Positions 11,339 to 11,776 of a DNA stretch of 64,000 nt are shown here, piece after piece. Every line of letters starts with the position of its first letter. Position 1 is the stretch's first letter. The notes below the pieces were generated by a model. The model was not told the DNA's origin and did no database searches. It saw nothing but the letters and a program-made list of their open reading frames with translations. Source of the stretch: Gimesia algae (GTDB lineage: Bacteria; Planctomycetota; Planctomycetia; Planctomycetales; Planctomycetaceae); assembly GCF_007746795.1 (NCBI RefSeq), contig NZ_CP036343.1, positions 4,439,357-4,503,356 of the forward strand. Reading direction: 5' to 3'. The position numbers and the translations under genes were made by a program.

Positions 11339-11359
11339 GTACCACGATCAGCAGCGCAC

Positions 11360-11390
11360 AAAAAAAGGAGCGCCGAACCACGACCGCTCC
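11360..11390 (-). terminator. Intrinsic terminator overlapping the P1 helix
   Basis: On the minus strand, GGAGCG (11390-11385), a 12-nt loop, CGCTCC (11372-11367) and then seven T (11366-11360). It is a GC-rich 6-bp stem with a perfect tract. It uses bases 11386-11390, which are also needed by helix P1 of the folded leader. Confidence 0.68.
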
Positions 11391-11540
11391 CACTACCCCG
11401 ACCAAGGGGCGCACAAGAACAGCGCATGGCCGACGCCCCCGTTTCGGGAGCGTCCACCAAGCACTGCTTCTTGTGCATCAAGAGCCTTTCGGCTCAGGTT
11501 GGTCGGTTAGTGGGAAGCAAAACTTGACGTTCGCACGTCA
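11360..11540 (-). ncRNA. Candidate structured RNA / attenuator leader
   Basis: Read on the minus strand, five helices nest. P0 is TGACGT-gcga-ACGTCA (11540-11525). P1 pairs 11518-11499 with 11405-11386 (18 pairs with one bulge and a small internal loop). P2 is GAGCC-gaaa-GGCTC (11495-11482). P3 pairs 11476-11461 with 11425-11411, with a bulge. P4 is 11454-11432, capped by AAA. Two loops are GNRA (gcga, gaaa) only when read on the minus strand, which argues for RNA on that strand. The distal P1 arm shares bases with a terminator stem (11390-11367), so P1 and the terminator exclude each other, as in riboswitch or attenuator leaders. I cannot match it to a known class. It may also be an independent small RNA ending at the T7 run. 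Confidence 0.6.
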
Positions 11541-11776
11541 TTCAAATTGTCAGATTGGCCATAACAGGCCGTTAAATAAATCTCCTATATGTTTTAATTG
11601 TGATAGCTACGACGAATTGCCGAAGCATTCGTGTATCAATAGTACAGTTCCGATCCAGCGTCATCCACAGCTATTGACTGAAATTTTGGGATGGTGTTGG
11701 TTTTTGAGACAGGCTTGTCAACGAAAAGACAATTTCATTTAATACCCAGTCTACTCTGGAAAGTTTTCAGAACTTA
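11541..11776. other. Spacer upstream of the folded leader
   Basis: 236 bp with no supported ORF, AT-rich. It may hold the promoter of the folded RNA on the minus strand. A short hairpin GGCC-tgttat-GGCC occurs at 11570-11557, but I see no clear -35/-10 pair. Confidence 0.35.

Follow-up and report, generated by a model that had tools for sequence, protein, structure and literature searches.

A structured RNA with a terminator overlapping its closing helix, candidate orphan riboswitch and putative 5′ leader class in Planctomycetota

Results and Discussion

A Structured RNA Upstream of a GYF_2 Gene in Gimesia algae

The minus strand of the window, i.e., the whole stretch of 64,000 nucleotides of Gimesia algae that was analyzed, carries an RNA with a core of about 190 nt, located 5′ of a gene encoding a GYF_2 membrane protein (Table 1). 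An earlier note, made from the letters alone, had taken the product of this gene for a membrane protein. Its sequence indeed contains a GYF_2 domain and a hydrophobic segment starting at residue 185, and its ATG lies 76 nt after the T tract. No tRNA or tmRNA was found within the window.

All of the helices P0 to P4 proposed in the earlier note were present on the minus strand. The region 11340-11560 of this strand folded with a minimum free energy of -112.9 kcal/mol, far below that of 200 dinucleotide shuffles (mean -78.4, sd 4.57, z = -7.55), none of which was as low. The two GNRA tetraloops expected were also recovered, with GCGA closing P0 and GAAA closing P2; among relatives, such loops are frequent and not universal (48/79 copies for P0, 36/79 for P2). 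The helices of the proposed fold stand; the nested description left out a pseudoknot that the loop of P5 can form. P5, the P5-loop helix and P1 are compatible with one another as a pseudoknot, with the exception of two pairs at the edge of the nested drawing, which reuse P5 bases.

Table 1. Features of the RNA and of its surroundings in the Gimesia algae window, listed 5′ to 3′ along the minus strand.
Feature	Position	Strand	Basis
-10-like hexamer TACTAT, putative promoter	11639..11644	-	sequence; weak for the window itself
H1, 5′ hairpin region	11606..11626	-	folding energies of relatives
GGAG motif in A/U-rich linker	11582..11585	-	enrichment in copies
H2 hairpin GGCC-UGUUAU-GGCC	11557..11570	-	folding energies of relatives
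Conserved ACAAUUUG	11543..11550	-	alignments
P0 hairpin GACGU-GCGA-ACGUC	11526..11539	-	fold and covariation
P1, 5′ arm, conserved bulged U at 11516 (11520-11508 paired with 11395-11384)	11508..11520	-	covariation
Pseudoknot helix, 5′ strand GACCAA (partner 11405-11400)	11499..11504	-	covariation on A1; in the model
P2 hairpin GAGCC-GAAA-GGCUC	11482..11495	-	covariation
P3/P4, long irregular hairpin (P4 tip 11454-11432)	11411..11477	-	fold and covariation
P5 hairpin GCCCC-UUGGUC-GGGGU, loop is a pseudoknot strand	11395..11410	-	covariation, though outside the model
P1, 3′ arm UAGUGGGAGCGG, common to the terminator 5′ arm	11384..11395	-	covariation, constrained folding
Intrinsic terminator stem-loop GGAGCG...CGCUCC	11367..11390	-	folding, conserved in relatives
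T7 tract	11360..11366	-	T-run conserved among copies
Gene with GYF_2 domain and membrane segment, 389 aa	10114..11283	-	Pfam PF14237, E = 2.3e-18

Covariation Supports the Core

Homologues were analyzed on two alignments. A1 comprises 29 copies, was built without structure and is also the source of the covariance model R1; A3, which was fitted to the model and hence leans towards it, comprises 95 matches; 90 of these are distinct, and copies that are split or truncated were retained. On A1, 96.6% of the cells were paired and two-sided changes occurred in 24 of the 46 pairs (140 cells), a level reached by 0/500 shuffles, while sliding the partner by 1-3 columns brought pairing down to 40-49%. 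On A3, two-sided changes extended to 44 of the 46 pairs (577 cells), again with 0/500 shuffles reaching this level. The compensatory changes that the earlier note had named as a check are thus present, and they affect the conserved, complex, aptamer-like kind of fold that is looked for in riboswitches.

The helices absent from the nested description behaved in the same way. P5, which lies outside the covariance model, was paired in 97.7% of the cells; double changes were seen in 14 cells, compared with 1.1 in shuffles (0/300 as high), and on A1 it was paired in 97.9% with two-sided change in 3 of its 5 pairs. The pseudoknot helix, which is in the model, was paired in 99.6% of the cells with 68 double-change cells vs. 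20.1; on the unfitted A1 the values were 98.3% and 4/6 pairs with two-sided change. The tip of P4 is variable in size: with columns mapped from the window, its pairing (78.4%) stayed at the level of shuffles (78.0%), and on the alignment fitted to the model it reached 98.5%. Within P1, the bulged base is a U in 72/79 copies and a U.G wobble is conserved in 69/79, both of which speak for an RNA and not for a DNA palindrome.

A scan for further covarying column pairs returned isolated columns, with no helix apparent among the best 25. RNAalifold also paired P0 with the 3′ arm of the terminator; by eye, this helix looked poor in several A1 sequences, including that of the window.

A Terminator That Excludes P1

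In the earlier note, the last arm of P1 was said to share bases with a GC-rich stem followed by seven T. This was confirmed: the P1 3′ arm UAGUGGGAGCGG at 11395-11384 includes GGAGCG, the 5′ arm of the terminator (11390-11385). The two helices are therefore mutually exclusive and both are kept among relatives, which is the arrangement of an expression platform competing with a riboswitch core; the GC-rich stem followed by a U tract is that of an intrinsic terminator.

The terminator stem showed a slight excess of pairing (84.2% of cells vs. 82.0% in shuffles, 0/300 as high), as well as 14 double-change cells vs. 7.3 expected (1/300 as high). Persistence of the terminator in homologues, another check named beforehand, was evident from the T-run on its 3′ side: at least 5 T within an 8-nt window followed the stem in 75/76 copies, against 5/76 for a control stretch 20 nt further on. 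A generic terminator scan of the window missed it, since that scan is limited to loops of 3-8 nt and the loop here has 12 nt; the same scan did call P0 and the T-poor stretch after it terminator-like.

In constrained folding of the window sequence, P1 was favored by 1.9 kcal/mol (-102.7 vs. -100.8), or by 0.3 kcal/mol under a slightly different constraint. For the 64 of 79 homologues evaluated, the median difference was 4.75 kcal/mol in favor of P1, the pseudoknot being ignored in the energies. Of these homologues, 54 preferred P1 with a margin above 1 kcal/mol, 7 had the two states within 1 kcal/mol of each other and 3 preferred the terminator; in 35/64 the states lay no more than 5 kcal/mol apart. 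Given this preference for P1, which exceeds 1 kcal/mol in 54/64 homologues, co-transcriptional kinetics may be required for termination.

Two other features of the terminator deserve mention. Its loop (11384-11373 in the window) has a UGGUU core which is conserved in homologues, a feature not usual in plain terminators, and for which the search for a pairing partner gave none. Also, in L013 and L030, two copies of the genus g48, the terminator is lengthened by a long palindrome, GGTTTGACGCTCCTCTC-GTTTT-GAGAGGAGCGTCAAACC, which extends beyond the T-run and is shorter in L020 and L028.

Downstream Genes Are Varied and Mostly Membrane-Anchored

In 54/76 copies, the terminator is followed within 280 nt by the start of a same-strand ORF with a length of 200 aa or more, against 12/76 for the divergent control on the other side, these copies including orthologues and thus not all being independent. 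Lower cut-offs weaken the contrast in orientation (57 vs. 18 at 150 aa, 68 vs. 37 at 90 aa; n = 76). With a rougher gene caller, the nearest downstream gene was on the same strand in 66/76 copies and the nearest upstream gene in 48/80; within 250 nt downstream, it returned 42 same-strand genes and 0 opposite ones. By position, the RNA would lie in the 5′ leader of a gene, as riboswitches do. For 8/80 copies, there was no downstream ORF.

The downstream proteins are mostly dissimilar. Among 72 ORFs, the largest cluster linked by blastp had 21 members and the next one 4. Pfam searches on 59 of these 72 ORFs gave GYF_2 in 10 and the next families in 2 each, few families being held in common. What most of them do have in common is a hydrophobic segment: after removal of redundancy, it was predicted for 46/51 downstream proteins, against 155/592 for the other ORFs of the vicinity (p = 6e-20), a count which omits 11 of the 72 ORFs that were doubtful by eye (4 with such a segment, 7 without). 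The segment is single in 33/51. Over all 72 raw first ORFs the proportion was 58/72, and the same method gave 28/47 for second genes, so that the membrane signal may be partly operon-wide or derived from the gene finder. A zinc-ribbon-like pattern was also present in 9/51 downstream proteins vs. 5/592 other nearby ORFs.

The earlier note had left the choice between a new leader RNA and a new small RNA. The placement just 5′ of a same-strand ORF, together with the type of gene, favors the first option, a cis-acting leader, and the second is disfavored.

The Region Upstream of the Core

In relatives, -10-like hexamers cluster about 80-110 nt upstream of the core, and in the genome G432, 6 of 6 copies show, by eye, TTGACA-17-TAnnnT at the promoter position; a consensus scan of the window found no promoter on the minus strand. 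The first hairpin region, H1 (-90 to -45), had a mean energy of -10.0 kcal/mol vs. -7.5 for mononucleotide shuffles and was among the lowest 10% or so in 35/75 copies. For H2 (the last 34 nt 5′ of the core), the corresponding values were -9.4 vs. -5.1 kcal/mol and 57/75. Between them, GGAG occurs within a 30-nt stretch of the linker in 51/78 copies, against 6/78 in a stretch 60 nt further upstream. Taken together, these sequence features suggest a putative promoter about 80-110 nt upstream of the core, with two hairpins and GGAG in between.

GGAG resembles a Shine-Dalgarno sequence and stands 35-46 nt 5′ of the core (quartiles). A conserved leader peptide behind it was considered and rejected, as a start codon is rare 4-14 nt past GGAG (ATG in 7/53; ATG, GTG or TTG in 15/53). 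The idea that GGAG pairs with the 3′ arm of the terminator was likewise rejected. The energy with the copy's own arm, -6.78 kcal/mol, compares with -5.76 when the upstream sequence is scrambled and with -6.66 when arms of other copies are used (4/20 shuffles as low); the own arm being no better than those of others, there is no covariation.

Distribution and Copies

The single-contig genome of Gimesia algae (7.93 Mb) has one copy, seven other matches being at chance level. Occurrence is patchy, 11/17 genomes of the genus Gimesia carrying the RNA. At the DNA level, 50 of the 170 family genomes searched had matches at E ≤ 0.01, not all of full length, as some were short. The covariance model found the RNA in 51/170 genomes of the family (E ≤ 0.01), in 67/297 genomes of the class (E ≤ 1e-5) and in 31/392 genomes drawn across the phylum (E ≤ 0.01); these three samples overlap, and the model searches were run with stricter filters, so that weak matches were lost. 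A blastn search with one copy gave 0 matches in 72,556 plasmid and 50,697 phage records. A phage origin was also considered from 10 stretches of viral contigs that fit a short pattern, and was rejected as the covariance model found the RNA in 0/10 of them at E ≤ 0.1.

The highest number of copies per genome is six, in G432. For several of these copies, which are 84-91% alike, the similarity is confined to a block that runs from about -95 to about +70; between L125 and L126 the similarity extends much further than the block. Each of the six cores (L125 to L130) is 84-99% identical to its nearest fellow, and most pairs diverge about 70 nt after the terminator. In the genome G109, the cores L157 and L158 are 97% alike, and the two ORFs behind them (477 and 625 aa) are not connected by any blastp match; this pair of cores is not among the DNA matches extending more than 60 nt past the core. 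Such near-identical cores before unrelated genes look as though the leader had been recruited repeatedly.

Concerted evolution within genomes was considered for multi-copy genomes and rejected, since of 48 copies only 14 have their nearest copy in their own genome; recent duplication does occur, and is not the rule. At one locus (L075:11293-14858), RNA and gene are repeated in tandem as RNA-gene-RNA-gene, and the second core follows about 30-40 nt after the first gene without the usual 5′ leader.

Proposed Mechanism and Alternative Explanations

The computations above give a conserved structure, lying before genes, whose closing helix P1 overlaps an intrinsic terminator. On this basis, we consider that the RNA most likely represents a new class of 5′ leader that acts in cis in Planctomycetota, and regard it as an orphan riboswitch candidate in which formation of P1 would lead to read-through. 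Its position, the strand it shares with the next gene and the terminator that is kept fit a leader with P1 as the antiterminator. The core, some 190 nt long, would be part of the leader of the next gene; P1 closes it, and the P5-loop pseudoknot would hold it together. When the core is stable, P1 would hold the shared arm and the polymerase would read into the gene; when it is unstable, the terminator would form and transcription would stop. We infer that the putative leader does probably switch, and in this direction.

For targets that are mostly membrane-anchored proteins, a factor binding the core would then be an ON signal; this factor is most likely a small molecule or an ion, and a protein is possible. 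That a small molecule or an ion is the ligand has, in our estimation, about an even chance; it is our first guess for the binder, a general RNA-binding protein being the second. The targets suggest no ligand, since most downstream genes are non-homologous. More speculatively, the RNA might be a riboswitch class for a general signal, for example a second messenger of the nucleotide type, or an ion or metabolite through which the state of the envelope is sensed, and so a portable ON leader for unrelated membrane-anchored proteins; we regard this extension as possible and rather doubtful. If the ligand were indeed a signaling molecule, the RNA would represent a new class of sensor. To our knowledge, few structured regulatory RNAs have been described from Planctomycetota. 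The envelope biology of this phylum is unusual, and with targets that are mostly membrane-anchored, the RNA offers an entry to genes of unknown function.

Among the alternatives, the one that fares best is a variant of the leader itself, an attenuator under the control of a trans-acting RNA-binding protein which would stabilize P1 or block the terminator. The GGAG of the linker, mostly without a start codon behind it, could be a site of contact, as a CsrA-like motif; the conserved UGGUU of the terminator loop could be another. Autoregulation by the downstream product is unlikely on this account, because the downstream proteins are mostly unrelated (largest cluster 21/72, next 4), and we find control by a protein rather unlikely overall.

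It is less probable still that the RNA is an independent, trans-acting small RNA that has a promoter and a terminator of its own, and to which the next gene would be a mere neighbor. Consistent with such an RNA are the promoter-like hexamers, whose distance varies rather little, the intrinsic terminator present in almost every copy, the very stable fold (z = -7.55) and the usual preference for P1 over the terminator in isolation. However, the contrast in ORF orientation (54/76 vs. 12/76) and the enrichment of membrane proteins among downstream genes are against it, and the terminator overlaps the closing stem rather than coming after it. The cis-acting leader remains the preferred reading.

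Relation to Known RNA Families

The earlier note could match the fold to no established class, and Rfam 15 agreed, giving 0 matches at the gathering cut-off in the window and 0 in 20 homologous loci. At E ≤ 10, the window had only two matches, both at chance level. The best weak match on the minus strand, RAGATH-16 RNA (RF03047), scored 15.7 bits against a gathering score of 65.6, and its E of 3.4 is that of chance. Structural matches to c-di-GMP riboswitches and ydaO motif RNAs were absent in Rfam.

In its logic, the RNA resembles the pfl and crcB motifs. These are reported to have a conserved core before genes and predicted terminators that overlap its 3′ region, from which raised expression was inferred (Weinberg, 2010; PMC2864571). 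The present RNA has the same arrangement, a core 5′ of genes with a terminator overlapping its 3′ region, and the same read-through logic. Unlike these motifs, it forms a separate family without Rfam match, its targets are mostly non-homologous and membrane-anchored, and it is known so far from Planctomycetota, the phylum to which our chromosome searches were confined.

The comparison that bears most on novelty is with the Rhodopirellula-1 motif, which Table 1 of PMC2864571 reports from Planctomycetes and Proteobacteria, with a 'y' for cis-regulatory, a '?' for RNA and no Rfam number. The RNA described here could be this motif or a part of it, which would concern its novelty and be compatible with the leader reading; we judge such an identity improbable, slightly more so than the small RNA. 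Going by that table row only, the two are alike in occurring in Planctomycetes, in being judged cis-regulatory and in having no Rfam number, and since Rhodopirellula-1 has no Rfam model there, the empty Rfam result says nothing against identity. On the other hand, the row places Rhodopirellula-1 in Proteobacteria too, and blastn with one copy of our RNA matched no plasmid or phage record; also, the RNA status of Rhodopirellula-1 is ambiguous in the row, whereas the present RNA covaries strongly. Apart from PMC2864571, no paper naming Rhodopirellula-1 was found in the literature searched. No RNA of this kind from Planctomycetes was among the literature matches listed, as judged from the openings of their abstracts, and for the terms used, no planctomycete name appeared in the main text of the ncRNA surveys PMC11109978 and PMC8632094 or of the review PMC7266159. 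Thus, the RNA looks new, barring identity with Rhodopirellula-1, compared by its table row only.

Finally, a recombination site acting at the DNA level, i.e., an attC-like palindrome used by tyrosine recombinases in place of a regulatory RNA, could be invoked from an element with three recombinases inserted beside the P4 palindrome in two genomes, but it is hardly credible, as a close relative (at least 85% identity) of the first recombinase occurs in only those 2 of 170 family genomes (the rest at most about 36%), and as the U.G wobble, the bulge, the terminator and the gene orientation are conserved.

In the two genomes with this insertion (G074 and G075; L068:5993-9717 and L069:5995-9707), an insert of about 3.5 kb with three consecutive tyrosine-recombinase genes, which we take to be a RIT-like element, splits the core on the 3′ side of P4. 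The insertion target, CGCCGG or CGTCGG, reappears inverted inside the left end of the element, with the matching base in both cases.
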